From: Oscillospiraceae bacterium
Lineage (GTDB): Bacteria > Bacillota > Clostridia > Oscillospirales > Acutalibacteraceae
Assembly: GCA_902802375.1 (NCBI GenBank)
Contig: CADCLS010000014.1
Coordinates: 1 to 32,352, forward strand
Reading direction: 5' to 3'
Length of the DNA stretch: 32,352 bases
Numbering within the stretch: the first letter of the stretch is position 1; each line of letters begins with the position of its first letter. A model generated the notes under the pieces. The model did not search any database and was not told the DNA's origin. It saw only the letters and a program-made list of their open reading frames with translations. Position numbers and translations under genes: made by a program. Below are positions 12,677 through 24,994 of this stretch, one piece after another.

Positions 12677-13357
12677 TTAGTGGATGTCTACATCCCAATC
12701 AGAGAGGAATTGGAAAAGTCTTGTCAAGTCTTTGTTGTTAACCCAGCCGTCATCGTTAACATCAAGAGCTTCCTCATCCACTTCAACATCCCAATCGGAG
12801 AGATATTGGAAAAGCCTTGTCAAGTCTTTGTTGTTAACCGAGCCGTCTTTATTGATATCACCGGGGATGTGTGAGTTATATACAATTTCTTCACTGTTGC
12901 CGGACTCGTATCCGCACACAGAACAAACCTCTTTTTTAAGACCGTTTTCAGTTTCGGTCGCTTTCTTAACTATAACCCAACTATATGTGTGGGCGGCAGT
13001 ATCTACCAGCTGCTCACATTCTGAGCATATATGCCAGTGATTTTCCGCATCAGACTGCCAAGTCTCACCGGGTGTGTGAATTCCTGTGGCATTAATAGTT
13101 TTGGGTGTGCGCGAAAGTTCAGTATTACAAACCGTGCAGTATACAACTTCGTCATAAGAACCGTCTTTACCGCAAGTAGCAGGAACTTCGTTTTCCCTTA
13201 CCGCCGCACCGGGTGTGTGAGTACAAGCCAGAGGATTAACTTCGCCACCTGTATAATCACCGTTTTCGGCGCTTGCCAAAAGCGTGGTAGAGGATAATGA
13301 TAAAACGAGTATTGCCGATAACAATACCGCAAGTATCTTTTTCATTGAAGTCTTCAT
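12677..13357 (-). CDS. Secreted Cys/His-rich protein with a C-terminal type I dockerin
   Basis: The product is 226 residues. A Sec signal peptide (about 1-30, ending near LLASAEN) is followed by two Cys/His-rich repeats of about 50 residues (C-T-H-TPG..., CTVCNTELSR; then HTPGETW..., HICSECEQL, VCSVCGYES) of a kind seen in cell-surface proteins of gut Clostridia. The last ~60 residues are a type I dockerin with two calcium-binding F-hand repeats, DINKDGSVNNKDLTRLF and DVNDDGWVNNKDLTRLF. The dockerin should plug into a cohesin on a scaffoldin or another surface protein, none of which is in the window. No catalytic domain is present. ATG 13357 has GGGAGGAAA upstream. The two dockerin repeats are nearly identical at DNA level. 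Confidence 0.9.
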   Translation of the reverse strand: MKTSMKKILAVLLSAILVLSLSSTTLLASAENGDYTGGEVNPLACTHTPGAAVRENEVPATCGKDGSYDEVVYCTVCNTELSRTPKTINATGIHTPGETWQSDAENHWHICSECEQLVDTAAHTYSWVIVKKATETENGLKKEVCSVCGYESGNSEEIVYNSHIPGDINKDGSVNNKDLTRLFQYLSDWDVEVDEEALDVNDDGWVNNKDLTRLFQFLSDWDVDIH

Positions 13358-13500: not shown

Positions 13501-14604
13501 TTAGTAAAGCTTAAGATCTATCCACAAGTTTTCATAATAACTTCTTATTTCGGGGTCAATATCGTGATAATACTGAGTGGGCGGCATATCCTCGGGAGCA
13601 GGGTAGAGTATTTCATCCTGATAGTAATAATAATCGGGGTTTTCAACCACCGCGCGGTTAGGAGAAGCGTAACCTATATACTCAGCGTTGTGAAGAGCAA
13701 CTTCCGGCTCTAACAGAAAGTCGATATAAAGCATAGCCGCATCATAGTTTTTAACTGAACTCGGAATACAAATAGCATCAACAAAAATGTTTGTGCCCTC
13801 TTCCGGATAGAAAAACTTCAAATCCTCGTTGTTGTCAAGCATTGTAAGGTAGTCGCCTGCATAATAAGGACCTATCGCGGCTTCGCCGGTTTCCATTTTT
13901 CCATAGATTTCATCCATTACATAGGACTGCAAAACGCCTTTGCCCTTTTTTAGAAGCTCTGCCGCCGCATCCCAGTCAGCCTTGTTTGTAGTATTAAGGT
14001 CCTGACCCAAAATCATTTGGGCTGTCATAAAACCGTCCCTCGGGTTACTGAAATTAAGTGACATATCGCGGTATTTTTCGTCCCAAAGCGTTTTCCAGGA
14101 GTGCTCAGGCTCACCAATTAGCTCCGGGTTGTAAATAATACCAACCATGCCGACATTATACGGAACAGAATACTCGTTGTTTTCATCGTAAAACAGACTT
14201 TTATATTCGTCATAAATAAAGCCGTAGTTTTGAAGTCTGCTTACATCTATTTTTTTGAGCATATTTTCATTTTTAAGTCGTTCAATCATATAGTCGGACG
14301 GAATAATTATATCGTACGAAACACCGCCGCTTTTAAGCTGAGAATACATACTTTCGTTGCTTTCAAATGTAGTATAATTGACATGAATACCTGTTATTCG
14401 CTCAAATTCGCGGTTTACATCCATCATATCGTCTGAACCGTCGGATATATATTCGCCCCAGTTATACACATTAAGTTCACTGCCGGCGAGGTTCTTTGTA
14501 TAAGTGCGGTTAAGTTCTATATCCATATATTCATATCCGCACGCGGAAAGAGTGCAGCATAAAATAATCGCGGAAAGAAGTAATAAAACTGATTTTTTAA
14601 GCAC
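13501..14604 (-). CDS. potD: Spermidine/putrescine-binding lipoprotein PotD
   Basis: This is the extracellular polyamine receptor of the PotABCD importer. It has 367 residues with a lipoprotein signal and lipobox LSAC (Cys22). The PotD signature 'LNVYNWGEYISDG' follows, then 'YDIIIPSDYMIERL', 'VPYNVGMVGIIYN', and the C-terminal 'NRAVVENPDYYYYQDEILYP' of the family. The start is GTG at 14604, chosen because AAAGGAGG lies directly upstream; a longer frame from 14643 lacks a site. It overlaps potC by 8 nt. It is the last gene of the operon, the usual Firmicutes order A-B-C-D. No clear terminator follows. Confidence 0.95.
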   Translation of the reverse strand: MLKKSVLLLLSAIILCCTLSACGYEYMDIELNRTYTKNLAGSELNVYNWGEYISDGSDDMMDVNREFERITGIHVNYTTFESNESMYSQLKSGGVSYDIIIPSDYMIERLKNENMLKKIDVSRLQNYGFIYDEYKSLFYDENNEYSVPYNVGMVGIIYNPELIGEPEHSWKTLWDEKYRDMSLNFSNPRDGFMTAQMILGQDLNTTNKADWDAAAELLKKGKGVLQSYVMDEIYGKMETGEAAIGPYYAGDYLTMLDNNEDLKFFYPEEGTNIFVDAICIPSSVKNYDAAMLYIDFLLEPEVALHNAEYIGYASPNRAVVENPDYYYYQDEILYPAPEDMPPTQYYHDIDPEIRSYYENLWIDLKLY

Positions 14605-15400
14605 GGGAATTCCTCCTTTGCTCACTTTTGGTCTGCACAACATTATAAAGTATCAAAAGCACAAAAATAGTTACAAATACAAGGGTTGAAAGGGCATAAA
14701 CATCCGGTTTTACAGTTTTCTTTGTCATATTGTAAATTACTACCGGAAGGGTCTGATAATGACCGCAGGTGAAATAACTTATAACAAAATCGTCAAGAGA
14801 AAGGGTGAAAGACATAATAAAGCCTGTAAATATACCGGTTTGAATTGATGGTATCACTACCTTAAAAAATGCTTGCACAGGAGTACAACCGAGGTCAAGC
14901 GCCGCCTCGTGCAAATTCTTATCAGTCTGACGGAGCTTAGGTATTACCGAAAGTATCACATAGGGTAGGTTAAATGTAATATGAGCTACCAGTACGGTAA
15001 CAAATCCAAGCGATTCGGAAAGACCTATCATCCTGCCGAAAAATACAAACAAAAGCATTAAGGAAACGCCGGTGACAATATCGGCGTTCATCATCGGGAT
15101 GTTTGTAACGGTGGTAACAAAGCTGCGTGCGATTTTCCGCCTTAGTGCCAGGATACCTACCGCCGCCGCAGTGCCGAGAACCGTTGCTGTGCTTGCGGAA
15201 AGTAAAGCTACGATAAGCGTATGTTTAAGGCCATCCATCATTGAAGTGTCGAAAAGTATGCCTTTGTACCAATCAAGCGAGAATTTATCAAATATCCAAA
15301 CACTTGAGCCTGAGTTAAAAGAGAAAAATACCATTACCGCGACTGGAGCATAAAGGAAGATTATCATAAGCGCAATATAAATTTTTGAAAAAGCTTTCAT
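14597..15400 (-). CDS. potC: Spermidine/putrescine ABC transporter permease PotC
   Basis: The product is 267 residues with about six membrane helices. The inner-membrane permease signature 'EAALDLGCTPVQAFFKVVIPSI' (EAA loop, contacts PotA) is at about 165-186, followed by 'FTLSLDDFVISYF', characteristic of PotC. The opening 'MIIFLYAPVAVMVFFSFN' is typical. The start ATG 15400 overlaps the potB stop as ATGA, so the two permease subunits are translationally coupled. Confidence 0.95.
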   Translation of the reverse strand: MKAFSKIYIALMIIFLYAPVAVMVFFSFNSGSSVWIFDKFSLDWYKGILFDTSMMDGLKHTLIVALLSASTATVLGTAAAVGILALRRKIARSFVTTVTNIPMMNADIVTGVSLMLLFVFFGRMIGLSESLGFVTVLVAHITFNLPYVILSVIPKLRQTDKNLHEAALDLGCTPVQAFFKVVIPSIQTGIFTGFIMSFTLSLDDFVISYFTCGHYQTLPVVIYNMTKKTVKPDVYALSTLVFVTIFVLLILYNVVQTKSEQRRNSRA

Positions 15401-16224
15401 ATGATAACGCCTCCTTCCTCGTCACTTGAAAATCTGCTCATTACCGCAAGACAGAGAAGTATCATAACCATAAGTATGAGCGAAATTGCGGAGGCAATAT
15501 TATAATATTCAGGACCAGCGCCAAATAGGTACTCAATAGCATCGCCTATTAGCCAATTTTTGTTTCCGCCGAGCTTTTGTGAAATATAGAATGTGCTGAC
15601 CGACGGTACAAATACCATAGTAATACCGGAAATTACTCCCGGCATAGAAAGCGGTATAATAACTCGTCTAAGGCGAGAAAACGCGTTTGAGCCAAGGTCC
15701 TCTGCCGCCTCTAAAAGCGACTTATCAATTTTTGACATTACCGAGTAAATAGGCAGTATCATATATGGCACGAAATCATATACCATACCGAGAATTACCG
15801 CACCGGGTGTATTAATCAGATGCAGCGGTCTAAGCCCTATTGATTTCAAAAAGGTATTTATAATACCGGTGTTTGCAAGAATTGATATCCAGGAATATGT
15901 GCGGATAAGAAAGTTCATCCACATAGGAAGCATTACGATTATCATAACCATGCGCTGAGAGCTTACTTTCATTTTCGTCATAAAGTAAGCCATGGGGTAG
16001 GAGATAAGAAGCGTAACGATTGTAGCGGCGAGGGCGTAAAGAATGGAAACACCAAAAGCTTTTTTATACTTTCCTATCTGCGCCATATTACTTAGCGTAA
16101 ACGCACCGGAATTATCGGTGAACGCAAAATATGCCATCATCAGAAGCGGCACTATAACGAATATTGCCGCCCATACAAGATACGGAGCCGCTACAAGACG
16201 GCTTCCGAAGCTTTTTTTGTTCAT
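15397..16224 (-). CDS. potB: Spermidine/putrescine ABC transporter permease PotB
   Basis: The product is 275 residues with about six helices. The EAA loop 'EAAEDLGSNAFSRLRRVIIPLS' is near residue 180, followed by 'GVISGITMVFVPSVSTFYI', characteristic of PotB. ATG 16224 is chosen: its ribosome-binding site GAGGAGG lies in the Glu codons that end potA, and its MNKKSFGSRLVAAPYLVW start fits the family. A longer frame up to 16293 lies inside potA and is rejected. It forms the channel with PotC. Confidence 0.95.
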   Translation of the reverse strand: MNKKSFGSRLVAAPYLVWAAIFVIVPLLMMAYFAFTDNSGAFTLSNMAQIGKYKKAFGVSILYALAATIVTLLISYPMAYFMTKMKVSSQRMVMIIVMLPMWMNFLIRTYSWISILANTGIINTFLKSIGLRPLHLINTPGAVILGMVYDFVPYMILPIYSVMSKIDKSLLEAAEDLGSNAFSRLRRVIIPLSMPGVISGITMVFVPSVSTFYISQKLGGNKNWLIGDAIEYLFGAGPEYYNIASAISLILMVMILLCLAVMSRFSSDEEGGVII

Positions 16225-16228
16225 ACCA

Positions 16229-17350
16229 TTATTCCTCCTCTTCCTCAATTTCGGAGAGGTGGTCCATTTCCTCGCTGTATGAGCTGTAATCACCGTAAAG
16301 ACCTGAGTATTCGGATTTTTTCATTATATGGATAGCATCAGGCTCAATGTAAAGGCCTACATTGTCACCAACAAAACATTCGTCGGTAGTTTGTATCATC
16401 CACTTGAAACCGCCGATGTCAACAATTATTTCGTAGTGAACGCCAAGGAAATCCACTGAGGTTACAGTGCCTGTCAGCATACCTTTATCCACAGGCACAA
16501 TATCAACATCCTCAGGGCGCACAACAACATCAACCGCCTCGTTTTCATCAAAATCTTTATCGAGACAGTCAAATGTGTGGCCTGAAAATTTAACCACGAA
16601 ATCCTTTAGCATTACGCCGTCAACAATATTTGATTCGCCGATAAAATCGGCAACAAATGCGTTTTTCGGCTCGTTATATATATCTTTAGGCGTGCCTACC
16701 TGCTGAATTTTACCCTTATCCATAACCACAACTCGGTCGGACATTGTGAGTGCCTCTTCCTGGTCGTGAGTTACAAATATAAATGTTATGCCAAGTGTGC
16801 GCTGAATGTTGCGAAGTTCCTTTTGCATATCCTTACGAAGCTTTAGGTCCAAAGCGGCGAGTGGTTCGTCAAGAAGCAGAACTTTCGGCTTGTTAGCGAT
16901 AGCTCTTGCTATTGCAACACGCTGTTGTTGACCGCCTGAGAGCGTAGTAATTCTGCGCTTTTCGAAGCCTTCAAGGTTTACAAGACTAAGCATTTCCGAA
17001 ACGGTTTTTTTGATTTCAGCCTCCGGCATCTTTTTAACTCTCAGCCCAAAAGCGACATTTTCAAAAACATTAAGATGTTCAAAAAGCGCATAACGCTGAA
17101 AAATGGTGTTTACCTGCCTTTTATAAGCCGGAACACCATTAAACTTTTTGCCCTCAAAAAGAACATCTCCCGAGTCAGGGTCCAGAAAGCCTGCGATAAG
17201 ACGAAGAGTGGTGGTCTTACCGCAACCGGAAGCACCGAGAAGTGTAATAAACTCTTTGTCACGAATTTCGAGACTAAGCTCGTCTAAAACCTTCTCCCCG
17301 TCAAACGACACACATACATTTTTGAGTTCTACAATATTTTCTTTTGCCAT
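16229..17350 (-). CDS. potA: Spermidine/putrescine ABC transporter ATPase PotA
   Basis: The product is 373 residues. ABC motifs are Walker [10 protein letters not shown] (about 39-47), signature LSGGQQQR, Walker B '[13 protein letters not shown]' and '[15 protein letters not shown]'. A TOBE domain follows from about residue 270 ('[10 protein letters not shown]'). The C-terminal ~25 residues form an acidic, Tyr/Ser/Glu-rich tail ending in Glu residues that I would not expect in a minimal PotA; its DNA also holds the potB ribosome-binding site. ATG 17350 has AAAGGGGG, which lies within the leader RNA structure described separately. It is the first gene of potABCD. Confidence 0.96.
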
Positions 17351-17511
17351 TTAAGCATCCCCCTTTGTCACACTATGCTTGTCGTTCGTCTGTTTGTGTG
17401 CCCTGACAAAGGGTTTTTCACAGTCTAATTTTAGCTGCGGCACACATTAGTATCGAACGACCGTTTTTACACAGATGCGTTAAATACCGAATATTAAATT
17501 TTTATCCGATG
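17351..17511 (-). ncRNA. Structured 5' leader of potABCD with a pseudoknot over the ribosome-binding site (candidate cis-regulatory RNA)
   Basis: The leader is ~160 nt and is read on the minus strand. Helix P1: GTCGTTCG (17461-17454) with CGAACGAC (17388-17381). Helix P2: TGTGTGCC (17446-17439) with GGCACACA (17402-17395). A small hairpin within P2 spans 17437-17421. The loop of P2 contains CCCTTTGTCA (17413-17404), exactly complementary to TGACAAAGGG (17370-17361), which includes the potA Shine-Dalgarno. That second segment is itself the loop of a hairpin AAGCAT (17380-17375)/ATGCTT (17358-17353). The 10-bp loop-loop pairing would hide the ribosome-binding site, as in translational riboswitches. 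I cannot match it to a named class; a polyamine-responsive element is inference. Confidence 0.65.
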
Positions 17512-17517
17512 TGTATG

Positions 17518-17546
17518 ACTATACGGCAAAAAGCCTGCAATGTCAA
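17518..17546 (-). promoter_or_regulatory. SigA promoter of potABCD
   Basis: On the minus strand TTGACA (17546-17541) and TATAGT (17523-17518) are separated by 17 bp. The predicted start near 17511 leaves the long structured leader before potA. Confidence 0.88.
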
Positions 17547-17603
17547 GTGATTTTTTGCAAAAAAACATATATTTTCACCGTTGTTTTCTTTGAGTTTTCA
17601 ATT

Positions 17604-17633
17604 AGCTCGTTTTATCACTGAAAAGCTCGTTTT
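17604..17633 (+). repeat. Short direct repeat upstream of the XRE gene
   Basis: AGCTCGTTTT occurs at 17604-17613 and 17624-17633, exactly 20 bp apart. It lies between the potABCD promoter and the XRE promoter; two helical turns of spacing would suit a regulator site, but this is unproven. Confidence 0.5.
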
Positions 17634-17661
17634 TTCTCACTTTTTTATGATTTGTAAAATA

Positions 17662-17690
17662 TTGCTTTTTTTGCACAGATGTCGTATAAT
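17662..17690 (+). promoter_or_regulatory. SigA promoter of the XRE-membrane regulator gene
   Basis: TTGCTT at 17662-17667 and TATAAT at 17685-17690 are separated by 17 bp, upstream of the ATG at 17719. Confidence 0.7.
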
Positions 17691-17718
17691 GTTATCAGCA
17701 GAATTTTGGAGGCTTATT

Positions 17719-18321
17719 ATGCCGGATATAAAACAGACTATTGCTAAGAACATTACCGAACTTCGCCTTATGAACGATATGACGCAGGCACAGCTCGGCG
17801 AAAAACTTAATTATTCCTTTAAGACGGTTTCAAAATGGGAACGCGGAGAGTCTACCCCAGATATAGAGGTGCTGACGGCTATTTCCGACCTTTTTGGCGT
17901 GTCGCTCGATTCACTTGTTCGGGAGGACAGTATCGCCGTAGGAACCGAAATAAGCGAAAAGAAGCAGAAAAACTATAATCACCGCGCGATTATATTTATA
18001 GTTGAAGCGTCGGTTATGCTGGCGGCACTCTTTGCTTTTATAATTACTTCACTTATAATAGGCGGCAAGGGATTTCAAATATTATATTTTGTGTATTCGT
18101 TGCCGATAATCTTTATAATCAGGCTGATTTTTAATTCTATATGGTTTAATCCGCGGCATAACTATTACATAGTATCAGCGCTTATGTGGGCAATACTCGC
18201 GGCAGTTCATATATCGTTTCTGTATTTCGGTATGAATGTTGCACTGATATATCTTTTGGGGCTCTTTGGCCAAATAATAATTATAATTTGCGCGTTTGTA
18301 AGCAGACCGTTCAAAAAATAA
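17719..18321 (+). CDS. XRE-family regulator with C-terminal membrane domain
   Basis: The product is 200 residues. The N-terminal HTH_3/XRE domain (about 5-65) has 'LRLMNDMTQAQLGEKLNYS' and 'KTVSKWERGESTPDIEVL'. After a polar linker there are four hydrophobic segments (about 92-197), so the DNA-binding domain would be tethered to the inner face of the membrane. Such XRE-TM proteins are common in Clostridia and are usually uncharacterised. ATG 17719 has GGAGG at 17708-17712; the open frame further upstream is promoter DNA. It is transcribed divergently from potABCD and could regulate it or itself, but nothing in the sequence proves a target. It ends at the terminator at 18324-18350. Confidence 0.92.
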   Translation: MPDIKQTIAKNITELRLMNDMTQAQLGEKLNYSFKTVSKWERGESTPDIEVLTAISDLFGVSLDSLVREDSIAVGTEISEKKQKNYNHRAIIFIVEASVMLAALFAFIITSLIIGGKGFQILYFVYSLPIIFIIRLIFNSIWFNPRHNYYIVSALMWAILAAVHISFLYFGMNVALIYLLGLFGQIIIIICAFVSRPFKK

Positions 18322-18796: not shown

Positions 18797-20125
18797 TTAC
18801 CGATCATATTTACTGAAAGATTCGCTTAATTCTTTACAGTCCTTATCGTGGAACATTCCTATCATCGCAAAATATCTTTCATGTGTGCGCCAGCCTTGGT
18901 CTATTGAGCCGGTGCCTTCTGTGACGATTTTTGTATCAGGGTGTTTTTCTTTAAGTATATTCACCTGCTCTTTGGGGATGGGTGTGTGTTCAAACCAAAC
19001 GCGCTCAAGAATCGGTAAATCGTAAAGCGGCGATATATCCCTAACATTATGAAGATAGCTTACATTAACATCTACAAGCTCTTTGCAAGCTGATAGCGGC
19101 GATAAATCGACAAGCTTTCTGCTGTTAACAAAAAGCTCTATATAATGTAAATGCTTCATCTTTGAAAGCGGCGTTAAATCAGATACCTGATTGTCAGCTA
19201 AAATAAGGAGTCTTAACTGCGGAAGGTAATCGCCAAGCACTGAAATATCGGTTATCGCTTGATGGCCTAAATCGAGCGCCTGCAAATCGGTGCAGTATTT
19301 AAGTACTTCTATATCCTCACTTTTAAGTCTTGTATGACTGTAATCATATATAAGAACAGAAAAAGCTACCGCGTCGGTTTTTAGCGACCATCTGCCCATA
19401 TGTATACGCCATACTATTTTTATGTGGGGCAAAGCATTTCTGAGCATCTCCATTTCTTCGTTTGAAGCTCCGCAATCCGACATATCAATTCTTTTAAGGT
19501 TTGAAAAGAGAGGGGCGTATTCAAGTATCAGTTCAGGTGTCGCCTTTTTGTTGCCTGACAGGTCCAGTTCATCCGCGTCGGAATCGTAAGTTTTTCCGAG
19601 AAGCGTAATTTCCCAGCCGAAATCAATGCTCGGAAAGTCTTTAGAAAGCTTCTTTTGCAGGGCTAATGATATAGTCTTTCCGCGTAGGTTTACTTTTTTA
19701 ACCTTCGGCAGTTGATTTAATACTACGGGTAGTGCGTCAATATCTTGTTCGGTGAGCTTTTTTTCGGATAAATCGAGCACCTCTTCGTTTGCAGGTATCA
19801 ATTCACCGTGAAAGGATACACAACACTTATAATTTATCTCGGCATTCGGGAATGCGGAGATAAGTTTTTCTTCATCATTAGGCGGCACCGGAAAATCTCC
19901 AAGCTCAAGCTTTTTAAGGCGCTTAAACGGAGCAAGAGCATTCACAAGCTCGCCTACGGATTTAATATTCTTGTTTTCAAGGTTTATGCTCGCGGTGTCT
20001 GCCCTCAGTGTCATACCGTATACTTTAATAGGTCTTACAGAGTAAATATAAAATGCGAGGACGGCGCCGGTGATGAGCGCCGCCACTATAAACCTTAGTA
20101 TAAGCCATTTCTTTTTCATAAGCAT
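18797..20125 (-). CDS. Membrane-anchored leucine-rich-repeat protein
   Basis: The product is 442 residues from ATG 20125. The N-terminus is basic, followed by one hydrophobic helix (about 8-30, 'FIVAALITGAVLAFYIYSV') that acts as an uncleaved anchor or signal, so the rest should be extracytoplasmic. Irregular LRR-like units run from about 60 to 240, then clear SDS22/internalin-type repeats: 'LQALDLGHQAITDISVLG', 'LRLLILADNQVSDLTPLS', 'LVDVNVSYLHNVRDISPLY'. LRR stacks bind proteins, but the partner is unknown. The start overlaps the rnfB stop (TAATG), so it is co-translated with the Rnf operon. ATG 20119 is an alternative start. A role in Rnf is possible but is only positional inference. Confidence 0.85.
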   Translation of the reverse strand: MLMKKKWLILRFIVAALITGAVLAFYIYSVRPIKVYGMTLRADTASINLENKNIKSVGELVNALAPFKRLKKLELGDFPVPPNDEEKLISAFPNAEINYKCCVSFHGELIPANEEVLDLSEKKLTEQDIDALPVVLNQLPKVKKVNLRGKTISLALQKKLSKDFPSIDFGWEITLLGKTYDSDADELDLSGNKKATPELILEYAPLFSNLKRIDMSDCGASNEEMEMLRNALPHIKIVWRIHMGRWSLKTDAVAFSVLIYDYSHTRLKSEDIEVLKYCTDLQALDLGHQAITDISVLGDYLPQLRLLILADNQVSDLTPLSKMKHLHYIELFVNSRKLVDLSPLSACKELVDVNVSYLHNVRDISPLYDLPILERVWFEHTPIPKEQVNILKEKHPDTKIVTEGTGSIDQGWRTHERYFAMIGMFHDKDCKELSESFSKYDR

Positions 20126-20910
20126 TATACTTCTATTATTGCCTTTCTCGGGCATACTTCTTTGCATTTTCCGCAGGAAGTACAAAGGGTGTAATCAATA
20201 ACTGCCAAGTTGTCTACAACCTTAATTGCGCCAAATTCGCAGGACCTTTCGCACATACCGCAGGCAATACACGAAACATCACACGCTTTAAGCACCGCAG
20301 GTCCTTTTTTCTTGTTTGAGCAATTAACTCTGACCTTTGCCTCTTCTTTAGGTATAATCGAAATTATAGACTTAGGGCAGGCTTTTGCGCATTTTCCGCA
20401 AGCGGCGCACATATCTTCACAGATTATGGGCTTGCCGCCTGAAAGTGTTATTGCGCCGAAGTCGCAGGCACGCATACAGTCGCCGTACCCGAGGCATCCG
20501 AACTCACACGCAATAGGTCCGCCTCCGGCGAGAGCCGCCGCCGCACAGGTCTTAAGACCTGTGTAGTCGAAATTAACTTTAACCGAATCGGGTCTGCCGC
20601 CACAGGCAATAAAAGCGACCTTTTTCTGTGCTTCAACTGTTACGCCTAAGACTTCGCTGAGCGCTTTCGCGGTATTCTCGCCGCCGGGTGCGCATTTGTT
20701 GGGTTCTGCTTTTCCCACTGCCAGCGCCGCGGCGTATCCGTCACATCCGCTATATCCGCAAGCACCGCAGTTAGCGCCGGGCAGGCATTCTCTTATCTTC
20801 ATTTGTTTTTCGTCAACCGGTACACTCATAAATTTATCTGCGAGCGTAAGGCCTACGCCTAAAACTATACCGATAACTAAAACAACCAAAACAGGTATAA
20901 GTATTTCCAT
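20125..20910 (-). CDS. rnfB: Rnf complex subunit RnfB (iron-sulfur protein)
   Basis: RnfB receives electrons from reduced ferredoxin and passes them into the membrane Rnf complex. Its 261 residues include an N-terminal membrane helix (about 3-25), then the Fe-S motif 'CLPGANCGACGYSGC' (C42, C48, C51, C56, with C73 further on). Multiple 4Fe-4S ferredoxin motifs follow: 'CAACGKCAKACP', 'CIACGMCERSC' and 'CTSCGKCKEVCP', plus a Cys set around 'GYGDCMRACDFGA'. This multi-cluster form is the clostridial long RnfB. ATG 20910 is 3 nt downstream of the rnfA stop. Confidence 0.97.
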   Translation of the reverse strand: MEILIPVLVVLVIGIVLGVGLTLADKFMSVPVDEKQMKIRECLPGANCGACGYSGCDGYAAALAVGKAEPNKCAPGGENTAKALSEVLGVTVEAQKKVAFIACGGRPDSVKVNFDYTGLKTCAAAALAGGGPIACEFGCLGYGDCMRACDFGAITLSGGKPIICEDMCAACGKCAKACPKSIISIIPKEEAKVRVNCSNKKKGPAVLKACDVSCIACGMCERSCEFGAIKVVDNLAVIDYTLCTSCGKCKEVCPRKAIIEV

Positions 20911-20913
20911 TGG

Positions 20914-21498
20914 TTATCCTCCTATTCCGGCAAAGCCTAAGAACGAAAGGGAAACGAGCGCCGCAGAAATCAGCGTTATCGGTAAGCCCTTTAAGAATTC
21001 GGGAATATCGGCATCGTCAACCTTTTGCCTGACACCTGCAAAAAGCACCATAGCAAGCATAAAACCGAGACCTGCCGCAAGGGCGTTAAATATAGAGGAA
21101 ACGAAATCAAGCTCATTTTGAATGTTAAGCATTGTAACGCCTAAAACCGCGCAGTTCGTGGTTATAAGCGGCAAGTATATGCCCAACGCATTGTAAACGG
21201 GTTTGATATACTTTTTAAGTACCATTTCTATGAGCTGTACGAGTGCCGCAATAACAAGAATAAACACAACGGTCTGCAAATAATCATACTTAGGATATAG
21301 CAGATAATGGTATATAGGATATGTAACTGCGGAGGCTACTACCATTACGAGCGTTACCGCTACACTCATTGAAAAAGCTGTGTTAAGCTTTTTGGAAACG
21401 CCGAGGAACGGACAAATTCCCAAAAACTTGGAAAGCACCATATTGTTTGTGAGAATTCCGGCAAGTAAAATCGAACATATAAGTGTAAACTTATTCAT
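20914..21498 (-). CDS. rnfA: Rnf complex subunit RnfA
   Basis: The product is 194 residues with six membrane helices. Highly conserved RnfA/NqrE wording includes 'NNMVLSKFLGICPFLGVSKK' near the N-terminus and 'YLPLITTNCAVLGVTML' in the middle. Together with RnfE it forms the inverted-topology pair that holds a membrane Fe-S cluster between conserved cysteines (in ICPF and TNCAV). The start ATG 21498 overlaps the rnfE end by 8 nt. Confidence 0.97.
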   Translation of the reverse strand: MNKFTLICSILLAGILTNNMVLSKFLGICPFLGVSKKLNTAFSMSVAVTLVMVVASAVTYPIYHYLLYPKYDYLQTVVFILVIAALVQLIEMVLKKYIKPVYNALGIYLPLITTNCAVLGVTMLNIQNELDFVSSIFNALAAGLGFMLAMVLFAGVRQKVDDADIPEFLKGLPITLISAALVSLSFLGFAGIGG

Positions 21499-22186
21499 TC
21501 TCCGTTACCTCCTTTTCACAAACTGTTGCGTTTTCGCAAATGCCTTTTGAGGGGCAGCTTTCACAACCTAAGTGTTCAACAGGCTTTTTACCCTGCTTTT
21601 TAGCAATGGCGTTTGATACCGCAACTAAAATGCCGAATACAAAGAATCCGCCCGGAGGAAGTAAGAATATAATCATAGGGCTTACAAATCGTGAAGTTAT
21701 TGGAAATGAAAACAGCGTTCCGGCACCCAAAAGCTCTCTTATTGCGCCCATTATAGTGATTACTGCAGTAAACCCGAGTCCCATACCGAGACCGTCAAGC
21801 AAACTCGGCAGTATAGGGTTTTTAGAGGCAAAAGCCTCGGCACGACCGAGAATTATGCAGTTAACAACTATCAGCGGAAGATAAATGCCGAGCGCCGCGT
21901 CAAGAGACGGGGTAAACGCTTTTACAAGCATCTGCACCACGCTTACAAAGCCTGCGATTATGGTTATGAACGCCGGTATTCTTACTTTATCGGGTATAAC
22001 ATTTCTGAGCGCCGCTATAACAACATTTGAACATACGAGAACGAGGGTTGCGGCAAGTCCCATACCGATGCCGTTTATTGCGGCGGTGGTAATGGCAAGC
22101 GTGGGGCAAGTACCGAGCACTAAGCGAAGCGTCGGATTTTCCTTAAGAAGACCGTTTGTAAAGATACTTAAATTTTTACTCTTCAC
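21491..22186 (-). CDS. rnfE: Rnf complex subunit RnfE with Cys-rich C-terminal tail
   Basis: The product is 231 residues, with six membrane helices homologous to RnfA: 'LVLGTCPTLAITTAAINGIGMG' and 'YLPLIVVNCIILGRAEAFA'. After the last helix a cytosolic tail contains four cysteines in 'CESCPSKGICENATVC', as if for another metal site. GTG 22186 is preferred because GGTGA lies upstream at good distance; GTG 22195 would sit almost on its own site. It overlaps rnfG by 11 nt. Confidence 0.93.
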   Translation of the reverse strand: MKSKNLSIFTNGLLKENPTLRLVLGTCPTLAITTAAINGIGMGLAATLVLVCSNVVIAALRNVIPDKVRIPAFITIIAGFVSVVQMLVKAFTPSLDAALGIYLPLIVVNCIILGRAEAFASKNPILPSLLDGLGMGLGFTAVITIMGAIRELLGAGTLFSFPITSRFVSPMIIFLLPPGGFFVFGILVAVSNAIAKKQGKKPVEHLGCESCPSKGICENATVCEKEVTENE

Positions 22187-22748
22187 TTGTCTCACCTGCC
22201 TTAAAAATTACTTCGTCTGCGAGTGCCAACGCTTCGTTCACTGATTTTGTTACAGCTCGAGAGGTAATGGTGGCACCCGTTACGGCGTTTATCTCATTTT
22301 TGTTTTCGTCAGCACCTGATTTTACAACAGTAATACCGCTGCACTTTGAACTGAATTGTCCATAAAAGTTTTCCTTTGCGGCGTTTTGTCCGAGTCCCGG
22401 TGTCTCACTCGATATATCGAGTATCTCTACTGCCTTAACGGTTTTATCGGGTAGTACCGCCGTCATAACCTTGACCTCGCCGCCGTAACCGTTAGCACTT
22501 GTTATAAATATGTAGCCGGTAGGTGCGCCGCCGTCGTTAGCAATATAATAGGTTTTTCCGTCAAAAGTCTCTTCGGTGTAGTTATCGGCTTTGAGAACTC
22601 TTGACATCGCCTTTTTTGTATTTTCGTTATTTATGTCAGCAATTTTATCCTTTGTCAAGGCGTTGGTGGAACTGAGCGCCAGCGATACTATAAGGCATAT
22701 CGCCGCTAAAATCAGGGTGGGGTAGATAAACTTAAACGCTTTATTCAT
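22176..22748 (-). CDS. rnfG: Rnf complex subunit RnfG (covalent FMN)
   Basis: The product is 190 residues. One N-terminal membrane helix (about 8-28) is followed by an FMN-binding domain. The flavinylation motif is 'NAVTGATITSRAV' with Thr160 as the expected FMN-carrying residue, and 'TPGLGQNA' upstream is a further family mark. The domain should be extracytoplasmic and needs ApbE, which is not in the window. ATG 22748 overlaps rnfD by 8 nt. Confidence 0.96.
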   Translation of the reverse strand: MNKAFKFIYPTLILAAICLIVSLALSSTNALTKDKIADINNENTKKAMSRVLKADNYTEETFDGKTYYIANDGGAPTGYIFITSANGYGGEVKVMTAVLPDKTVKAVEILDISSETPGLGQNAAKENFYGQFSSKCSGITVVKSGADENKNEINAVTGATITSRAVTKSVNEALALADEVIFKAGETSEE

Positions 22749-23661
22749 CAGTTTTTACCTCCTTATACCCGAAAGGACGGCTGAACGGTATTCTGTTTAT
22801 AAGAGGTGTGATGATATTCATCAAAAGGATGGCATAGGAAACACCCTCGGGCAGAGAACCGAAACGGCGTATAACAAAGGTGATTGCACCGCATCCGATA
22901 CCGAAAATCAGTTTGCCCCAGTTTGCTGTCGGGCTTGTTACATAGTCGGTAGCCATAAATATAGCGCCCAGCATTAGTCCACCTGAAAGTATGTATTTTA
23001 ACGGGTTTTCACCTGATACTGTCGCGAGTAAAGCAACAGTGCCTATAAAAGATACGGGGATTATAGGATTTATTACCTTGCGCACTATAAGATAAAGACC
23101 GCCGATAATAAGTAAAAATGCACTCGTCTCGCCGATACAGCCTGAATGCATACCGAAAAACAGAGTTTTAATACTTGTAGCTTTCAGGTCTGCGAGAGGA
23201 GTGGCAGACGAAATGACATCTGATATCGGCTCGCTGAATTTTGTCATAAATGATGGGAAGGATACAAGAAGTATAATTCTCGCACCCAAAGCCGGGTTTA
23301 CAAAGTTGTAGCCGAGACCGCCGAACATCTGCTTAATTACTATTATCGCCGCCACACTTCCTATTGCGGCTATCGGGAGTGGTGTGTAAGGGCTTAAATT
23401 CATACCGAGCAAAAGACCTGTAACAACGGCGGAAATATCACCTATCGTCTGCGGTTTTTTGAGTATTAAATTCCAAAGGAATTCAGAGGCTATCGCAGTT
23501 ATAACCGTTGTAAGCAATACAAATACTGCTCGAAGACCGAATATAACACATCCGTAAACTGCCGCAGGGGACAGTGCTAACACAACATCAAGCATAATGC
23601 CTGCCGTTGTGTCTTCATGCCTTATGTGCGGAGAAGATGCGGCTTTAAGTAAATTACTCAT
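22741..23661 (-). CDS. rnfD: Rnf complex subunit RnfD (covalent FMN, membrane)
   Basis: The product is 306 residues with about nine or ten membrane helices. It opens 'SSPHIRHEDTTAGIMLDVVLALSPA', as RnfD/NqrB proteins do. The flavinylation site is 'SSATPLADLK' with Thr154. 'GGLGYNFVNPALGARI' is another conserved element. It forms the main ion-coupling membrane subunit with RnfA/E. ATG 23661 overlaps rnfC by 8 nt. Confidence 0.96.
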   Translation of the reverse strand: MSNLLKAASSPHIRHEDTTAGIMLDVVLALSPAAVYGCVIFGLRAVFVLLTTVITAIASEFLWNLILKKPQTIGDISAVVTGLLLGMNLSPYTPLPIAAIGSVAAIIVIKQMFGGLGYNFVNPALGARIILLVSFPSFMTKFSEPISDVISSATPLADLKATSIKTLFFGMHSGCIGETSAFLLIIGGLYLIVRKVINPIIPVSFIGTVALLATVSGENPLKYILSGGLMLGAIFMATDYVTSPTANWGKLIFGIGCGAITFVIRRFGSLPEGVSYAILLMNIITPLINRIPFSRPFGYKEVKTDE

Positions 23662-24994
23662 TTTTGCTGCCTCCTAAGTGTATCTTGGCAATTCTCATTA
23701 CTTCCGTAAGCGGCCGCTTAGCGGGGCATATAAACGAACAGCTTCCGCATTCTATACAGTAGTTTACATTGAGTGTTTTATATGCCGCGGTATCACCTTT
23801 TTTGTAGGCTGTTTCCACCCTTGCCGGAGTTAAATTCATAGGGCATGTCTTTTGGCATCTGCCGCATCGTATACAAGCGGTAGTGGTGCGAGCACGCTCG
23901 TCTTTTTTCATAATGAGCAAGGCGTTGGTTCGTTTTTCCACAACCGCATCAAGCGAAGATACCGGCTGACCCATCATAGGACCGCCCATTATTATGCGCT
24001 CAACTATATCCGCATCTATGCCTAAATATTTAAGAACTGCACTTATAGGCGTTCCGATAGGAACCATAAGGTTTTTGGGGGTATCTACGGCGCTGCCGTC
24101 AACCGTAATCCTTTTGGCGGTGAGCGGCATACCCGTAACAATAAAATCATATAACTTCGCGAGGCTTGTAACATTCATTACAATACAACCCACATCACTC
24201 GGCAGCTTGCCGAGAGGCACTTTTCTGCCTGTTGCGGAGTAAATTATAACTTTTTCGGCACCCTGCGGATAAGTGGACGGAAGCTTCATTAGCTTTACTG
24301 TATCGTCTACATCCTGCTTGTTTGTCGCAACCTCCATAAGCTTTTCGATAGCTTTTGGCTTGTTATTTTCTACGCAAATAATAACCTTTTCAATATTGAG
24401 CTTTTCTTTAAGTAGATAAGTGGCGGCAATTATACCGTCAACATTCTCCATACACTCTCTGTAATCCGATGTTATATATGGCTCGCATTCTGCGGCGTTT
24501 ATTATCAGAGTATCGATTTTTGTGTCTTTTGACGGAGATAGCTTTACATGTGCCGGAAAACCCGCGCCCCCGAGACCTACAAGACCGCACGCTTTTGCCG
24601 CCGCCGCTATATCCTCAGCAGTGTTTACCGGAAACGCCTTTAAGTCTGGGTCGATTTTCATTTCACCGTCAGACTCGATTTCAACGCACTTAACCGCTGC
24701 GGCACCGTTTAATACCTTATCAACTACACCCTTAACCGTGCCTGAAACACTTGAATGAACCGGCGCTGATACAAAGCCTGTAGCTTCTGCAATGATTGTG
24801 CCGACAAATACTTGGTCGCCTTTTTTAACTATCGGGTTTGCCGGCGCGCCTATATGCTGGGAAAGCGGAATGTAAACCGTATCGGGTGCCGGCATTACTT
24901 CCGTTTGGATTTCGGCTGAATTTTTGTGGTGTGGCAGTTTAGCTCCGCCGTGTATGCGCCTAATGGGCTTTAGTGGCTTTTCCTTTCTTGCCAT
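23654..24994 (-). CDS. rnfC: Rnf complex subunit RnfC (NADH-binding, Fe-S)
   Basis: The product is 446 residues. The N-terminal barrel-sandwich domain opens 'IRRIHGGAKLPHHKN'. The FMN/NADH-binding region has 'GLGGAGFPAHVKLS' at about 140-153. Two 4Fe-4S motifs lie at 374-384 (CIRCGRCQKTC) and 413-423 (CIECGSCSFIC). RnfC is the site where NAD+ is reduced by electrons from ferredoxin while Na+ or H+ is pumped. The start ATG 24994 has GGAGG upstream. It is the first gene of the operon, transcribed from the promoter at 25029-25057. Confidence 0.97.
   Translation of the reverse strand: MARKEKPLKPIRRIHGGAKLPHHKNSAEIQTEVMPAPDTVYIPLSQHIGAPANPIVKKGDQVFVGTIIAEATGFVSAPVHSSVSGTVKGVVDKVLNGAAAVKCVEIESDGEMKIDPDLKAFPVNTAEDIAAAAKACGLVGLGGAGFPAHVKLSPSKDTKIDTLIINAAECEPYITSDYRECMENVDGIIAATYLLKEKLNIEKVIICVENNKPKAIEKLMEVATNKQDVDDTVKLMKLPSTYPQGAEKVIIYSATGRKVPLGKLPSDVGCIVMNVTSLAKLYDFIVTGMPLTAKRITVDGSAVDTPKNLMVPIGTPISAVLKYLGIDADIVERIIMGGPMMGQPVSSLDAVVEKRTNALLIMKKDERARTTTACIRCGRCQKTCPMNLTPARVETAYKKGDTAAYKTLNVNYCIECGSCSFICPAKRPLTEVMRIAKIHLGGSKNE

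Follow-up and report, generated by a model that had tools for sequence, protein, structure and literature searches.

The question raised by this locus is whether the RNA leader in front of potABCD, an operon for a polyamine importer, controls the translation of that operon, and if so, by what kind of switch. The window, namely the whole stretch of 32,352 nucleotides that was analysed, comes from an Oscillospiraceae bacterium and carries the operon as follows.

16229 to 17350, minus strand: potA, polyamine ABC transporter ATP-binding protein, matching NCBIfam NF043075 and TIGR01187 above their cut-offs
15397 to 16293 as listed (possibly with its true start further downstream), minus strand: potB, permease, whose best NCBIfam match is PotB, below the curated cut-off
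14597 to 15400, minus strand: potC, permease, whose best NCBIfam matches are spermidine/putrescine permeases, below cut-off
13501 to 14643, minus strand: potD, polyamine-binding protein, whose best NCBIfam match is PotD, below the curated cut-off

The PotD protein also matches solved spermidine/putrescine-binding proteins (4eqb with E 2.6e-62, 1pot with E 2.8e-45), and at all ten loci inspected for pot genes, potB comes after potA, with potC and potD behind it where the DNA reaches far enough. The window's genome, which is 99.86% complete, gave no match to PF01564 (spermidine synthase), PF02675 (AdoMet decarboxylase) or PF01276 (Orn/Lys/Arg decarboxylase), and because these three polyamine-synthesis families are missing, the bacterium probably depends on polyamine uptake.

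The promoter, the leader and its predicted pairings lie directly upstream of potA, whose ATG start codon begins at 17350.

17546 to 17541 and 17523 to 17518, minus strand: sigma-70 type promoter of the operon, TTGACA and TATAGT with a 17-nt spacer, matching the consensus at 11 of 12 positions
17510 to 17503 with 17493 to 17486, minus strand: 5' hairpin of the nested fold, outside the conserved element
17478 to 17474, minus strand: 5' strand of helix P1, GCAUC, partner of GAUGC at 17359 to 17355
17461 to 17454, minus strand: 5' strand of P3, GUCGUUCG, paired with 17388 to 17381 in the fold
17446 to 17439, minus strand: 5' strand of P4, UGUGUGCC, from covariation
17438 to 17420, minus strand: P5 hairpin, GCAG.CUAA / UUAG.CUGU, from covariation
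17419 to 17414, minus strand: conserved single strand GAAAAA, all six positions conserved at 95% or more across the 94 aligned leaders
17413 to 17404, minus strand: 5' strand of the pseudoknot, CCCUUUGUCA, from complementarity and from covariation in relatives
17402 to 17395, minus strand: 3' strand of P4, GGCACACA, from covariation
17388 to 17381, minus strand: 3' strand of P3, CGAACGAC, from the fold
17370 to 17361, minus strand: 3' strand of the pseudoknot, UGACAAAGGG, taking in most of the potA Shine-Dalgarno sequence
17366 to 17359, minus strand: potA Shine-Dalgarno sequence, AAAGGGGG, of which AAAGGG is covered by UGACAAAGGG
17359 to 17355, minus strand: 3' strand of P1, GAUGC, between the Shine-Dalgarno sequence and the start codon

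The promoter that a preliminary description had placed ahead of the leader is indeed near-consensus; the scan of the whole stretch returned 3 promoter-like sites, where shuffles gave 1.0, and from promoter spacing the transcription start is inferred at about 17510-17512. Likewise, the 10-bp pseudoknot which that description had drawn over the potA Shine-Dalgarno sequence is confirmed on the sequence in its coordinates and in its perfect complementarity, with a duplex energy of -14.7 kcal/mol. The nested fold of 17520-17340, in which the pseudoknot takes no part, is better than that of 200 out of 200 dinucleotide shuffles (z -3.8). The other helices drawn earlier stood only in part: an AAGCAU/AUGCUU hairpin (17380-17375 / 17358-17353) is not in the relatives' leaders, and P1 had been missed, for in nearly all relatives the 3' GAUGC can pair instead with a nearly invariant 5' GCAUC. 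Because of this pairing in relatives, the conserved element would span about 17482-17351. The window copy (L001; 17380-17350) and that of one other genome of the genus (L037, G081) are a shortened variant, without the GGUAUCG..CAGGGUAA..UUUACUACUGUCGACAC part which most genus members have between P3 and the Shine-Dalgarno sequence.

The structure was examined by covariation in an alignment of 94 rows (37 from the genus and 57 from the family), which were taken from 96 model matches, 95 of them distinct, chosen from those then known; loci L262-L309 lie outside this test, and the window's own copy (L127) was left out by the anchor-distance rule, its pairing being perfect. All column pairs at least 4 apart were scored over 94 leaders and 173 columns, and compared with 150 null alignments which replay the inferred substitutions along the tree, this being our own approximation of the R-scape approach with an E floor of 1/150. 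Most helix columns other than those of P1 and the pseudoknot came from an alignment fitted to a model containing these helices, so that the counts lean towards them, while P1 was re-anchored by its own motif and the pseudoknot is in no model. CTTTG and CAAAGG served as anchors for the pseudoknot columns, hence those pairs are canonical by construction and the evidence comes from the flanking pairs only; where a leader has four G's, one of them belongs to both the CAAAGGGG and the GATGC block and is counted twice.

Twelve pairs reached E<=0.05, and eight of them were among the proposed pairings, in P4, P5 and the pseudoknot. Pairs 39-87 and 38-88 of P4, and 49-60, 48-61 and 44-65 of P5, outscore every pair of the 150 null alignments, and the tree shows as many as 19 double changes for pairs in P4 and 16 for those in P5. 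In the pseudoknot, pairs 80-156, 81-155 and 82-154 are significant (E<=0.05); these variable pairs are canonical in 94, 93 and 88 of the 94 rows while their identities change (UCA/UGA, UUC/GAA, CGG/CCG), each with one or two double changes, and 82-154 has four breaking changes as well. The other four significant pairs join these pseudoknot columns off register; they too reach E=0, since between clades the block changes as a whole. They are canonical in at most 75 of the 94 rows, so it is only the canonical counts that single out the proposed register. Covariation is borderline for P3 (best pair E 0.06) and for P6 (best three pairs E 0.5-1.2), and P2 (CUGUG/CGCAG) is drawn without being claimed, its covariation being weak (E 7.5 and 34). 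The five pairs of P1 are canonical in 91-93 of 93 rows and so nearly invariant that they lie beyond covariation testing; in a few loci both sides of the P1 flank have changed. L161, of the paralogue type, has ACAGC with GUUGU in place of the usual P1 strands, and around two of the four elements outside the family no P1 5' strand was found. Conservation reaches 95% or more at bases that include GCAUC, GAAAAA, CUUUG and CAAAGGGG-GAUG, among which CUUUG, like CAAAGG, had served as an anchor, and the stretch between P3 and the Shine-Dalgarno sequence is poorly conserved across genera.

By this comparison the conserved core consists of P1, P4, P5 and the GAAAAA strand, with P3 less certain, together with a long-range pseudoknot of consensus CYUUUGnnn with nnnCAAAGG whose 3' strand falls within the Shine-Dalgarno region. 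The comparative evidence is strong for P4 and P5, and good for the Shine-Dalgarno pseudoknot. The paired segments on which the preliminary description had staked its proposal are thus kept in relatives, the substitutions in the pseudoknot being mostly compensated. That the complementarity arose by chance in one leader is ruled out for practical purposes, since conservation in relatives and covariation refute it and nothing is left in its favour after the comparison.

To follow the element through the genus, 62 potA upstream regions (L001, L036-L096) were surveyed by pattern, with PotA relatives present in 61 of 70 genus genomes (E<=1e-100). The full element occurs in 44 regions and an altered form in 4 further ones (L037, L039, L051, L091); one region (L059) runs into a contig end, two (L077, L078) hold only remnants, and in 11 the element was not seen (L081, L084, L085, L087-L089, L090, L092, L094, L095, L096). 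Three of these eleven (L092, L094, L096) lie before more diverged potA genes, with 56-71% identity. Both regions with remnants, and two regions with no element (L090, L095), have kept a GGGGAUGC-like ribosome site. Since 11 of the 62 regions have no element and 2 have remnants, the element is dispensable.

The 11 regions without the element, together with the ribosome site kept in these four, speak for a structured leader that senses nothing and just adjusts mRNA stability or the basal level of translation, or that responds to temperature. We consider such a leader improbable, because its unpaired bases and the Shine-Dalgarno pseudoknot are conserved over dozens of genera, beyond what a stability hairpin would need.

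Within the genus, a model (R1) built from 29 aligned genus leaders matched 48 of 70 genomes, with a single match per genome except in two. One of the genomes, G068, carries two element copies before two potA genes (L065 and L091, of UUCA type and CGG type), and this presence of two potA genes with their own RNA versions suggests that operon and leader move together. In another, G077, the element (L051) was scored as two pieces, split at C33:32490/32703, since an insert of about 210 bases interrupts the leader; this insert is flanked by imperfect inverted repeats and is possibly a small mobile element.

Beyond the genus, R1 matched 62 of 398 family genomes and 10 of 394 order genomes sampled, including four order matches in other families without potA. 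A second model (R2), built from 38 leaders, matched 80 of 300 family genomes, in 38 of the 135 genera sampled, 15 of 391 class genomes, five of them within the family, and 2 of 299 phylum genomes, the second of these without potA; the filters in these model searches were strict, at the cost of weak matches, and the samples at family level and above are incomplete. Among the ten class matches outside the family, four are directly before potA (L265-L268, in families f39, f77 twice and f27) and six are not. The weak matches without potA were treated as chance (L131-L134 in the order, L269-L274 in the class, L281 in the phylum). An exact 21-base motif found 69 loci in named records, 67 of which have potA behind them by tblastn; of the other two, L216 shows a PotA-like start before the sequence is cut, and L258 sits inside a 490-residue open frame and was rejected as a chance match. 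The named carriers are Caproiciproducens galactitolivorans, C. faecalis, Anaeromassilibacillus, Clostridium minihomine and many gut MAGs, names which point to the GTDB family Acutalibacteraceae; these bacteria live largely in animal guts.

Throughout the genus and the family, potA follows every match checked except L120, which ends at a contig end: the family loci gave 57 of 57, 3 of 3 and 34 of 34 (six of them repeats), and the genus loci 32 of 33, while the genus leaders of the pattern survey had been taken upstream of potA in the first place. This exclusive association, together with the missing synthesis families in the window's genome, strengthens the guess of a polyamine as ligand, for which we would give even odds. 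Ligands are unreadable from sequence, and validated riboswitches have surprised before. A riboswitch for some other ligand, for instance a SAM derivative, arginine, ornithine or another linked metabolite, or else a metal ion, has a small share of the probability; it is set back by the fact that all genes found under control are polyamine-importer genes by homology, and that with the three synthesis families missing from the window's genome, regulation would fall on import. Autogenous control would fit the exclusive link to a single operon as well as a riboswitch does, and the same anatomy would serve a protein: a subunit of the transporter, a ribosomal protein or a dedicated regulator might bind the core of P4, P5 and the pseudoknot and control the translation of potA. 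Long conserved single strands such as GAAAAA are, however, usual in aptamers, which counts indirectly against a protein-bound leader, and we hold this explanation to be unlikely, about on a par with that of another ligand.

The comparison with known RNAs bears out the earlier remark that no named class could be recognised. At gathering score, Rfam 15 gave no match in the window and none among 20 diverse family loci, so a known Rfam class is rejected. A permissive search gave three matches in the window at 17200-17700 (two microRNA families and one snoRNA), all far below gathering, and five matches on three of five relatives' loci, each below its family's gathering score; the SAM-I four-stem aptamer had no match in the window or in the relatives' loci, either in strict or in permissive searches. 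The Rfam library contains a potC RNA, named after a pot transporter gene, and the potA leader gave no hit to it. In riboswitches of the preQ1 and SAM-II type, a pseudoknot takes in the Shine-Dalgarno sequence and shuts translation; these pseudoknots are smaller than that of the potA leader and differ in sequence, and the potA leader has no Rfam match.

In titles and abstract openings, with few subscription journals covered and outside a 2017 survey of 224 candidate RNAs, we found no paper describing this leader RNA. The nearest precedent is the spermidine riboswitch of Gram-positive bacteria, a variant of SAM-I with 13 examples which is an OFF switch, precedes synthesis genes such as speE, speB and ldcC and acts by transcription termination (Salvail et al. 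2023, PMC10853860). According to the passages cited here, it is the only polyamine riboswitch that its authors present as convincing; they find earlier claims unconvincing and hold that more classes surely remain (PMC10853860). Both RNAs are associated with polyamine genes, and the OFF logic, shown there, is proposed here for the potA leader; in contrast, the latter has another architecture without Rfam match, precedes potA and would work through the ribosome site. It also has many more examples than the 13 of the SAM-I variant (PMC10853860), is tied to uptake rather than synthesis, and is present in named isolates, so that the question whether RNAs sense imported polyamines becomes directly testable.

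Spermidine lowers potA/B in the spermidine auxotroph Borrelia burgdorferi once transcription has started, with premature 3' ends inside potB, by a mechanism that the authors leave open (PMC10319736). This resembles the present proposal in that the potABCD importer is lowered after transcription initiation, and differs in that no leader aptamer is described in the passages cited (PMC10319736). The potE and odc1 motifs are candidate RNAs near polyamine-related genes, the former with weak covariation support and some 200 nt from its gene, the latter involving an upstream ORF (Brewer et al. 2021, PMC8632094); unlike the potA leader RNA, they precede other genes. In the main text of a 2024 survey of 50 genomes, a term search finds neither potA nor polyamines (PMC11109978).

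Taken on its sequence comparisons, the potA leader is a real conserved cis-regulatory RNA family, not in Rfam 15, and presents a well-supported candidate for a new translational riboswitch. As generally expected of such RNAs, it is a conserved structured leader with covarying helices, with a predicted structure able to sequester the Shine-Dalgarno sequence, and the architecture of a translational switch that had been read from the single sequence gains support from these same features. No transcription terminator was found in 17300-17620, so a reading by transcription termination is rejected and translational control is more likely. In the proposed mechanism, the leader would act in cis on the translation of potABCD: with the pseudoknot and P1 formed, the 30S subunit could not bind and the importer would not be made, while with both open the Shine-Dalgarno sequence would be free. 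The core would serve as the aptamer of a small-molecule ligand, with an imported polyamine (spermidine or putrescine) as the most likely one, and ligand binding would stabilise the pseudoknot and thereby give feedback repression of uptake. We put the probability of this reading, a translational control RNA with a polyamine as the most likely ligand and a ligand-stabilised pseudoknot as OFF switch, at roughly 0.6. That the leader is a riboswitch at all we think probable, somewhat beyond this. A new class that binds a polyamine directly and shuts importer translation by a Shine-Dalgarno pseudoknot could go either way; it would have a fold unrelated to that of the one validated spermidine riboswitch and be common within a single Clostridia family of gut and fermentative bacteria.

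The best nested fold has -45.2 kcal/mol, with Shine-Dalgarno bases unpaired in the ensemble with probability 0.43 to 0.97, and a fold with the pseudoknot bases kept free, P1 included, has -41.2 kcal/mol, to which the duplex adds its energy before an initiation penalty; by this rough estimate the nested and pseudoknot states are close. In some leaders a competing four-base partner lies just upstream of the pseudoknot 3' strand (GCGG for CCGC, UGUC for GACA). The resulting hairpin occurs more often than expected in the CCGCA group (30 of 85, with 11.8 expected) and in the UGACA group (12 of 15, with 2.4 expected), by a test that treats related sequences as if they were independent and shuffles single bases. 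The small groups gave 3 of 3 (GGACA), 1 of 2 (ACGCA), 0 of 2 (TGGCA) and 0 of 1 (CACCA). It is absent from the GAACA group (0 of 20), from two thirds of the CCGCA group and from the window copy. As a contiguous stem tested per leader, it reaches p<=0.05 in 6 of 126, most being not significant; the four-base count by group is simpler and gave the clearer signal. The competing hairpin is thus a plausible candidate for the ON state in some lineages only, and not in the window copy.

As for the neighbours of the operon, a divergent HTH_3 regulator gene adjoins potA at 17581-18321, its true start lying probably well inside the listed ORF, and a small protein with a type I dockerin domain is encoded at 12677-13357. 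A leucine-rich-repeat protein at 18797-20185 adjoins another operon at 20125-24994, presumably of Rnf type.
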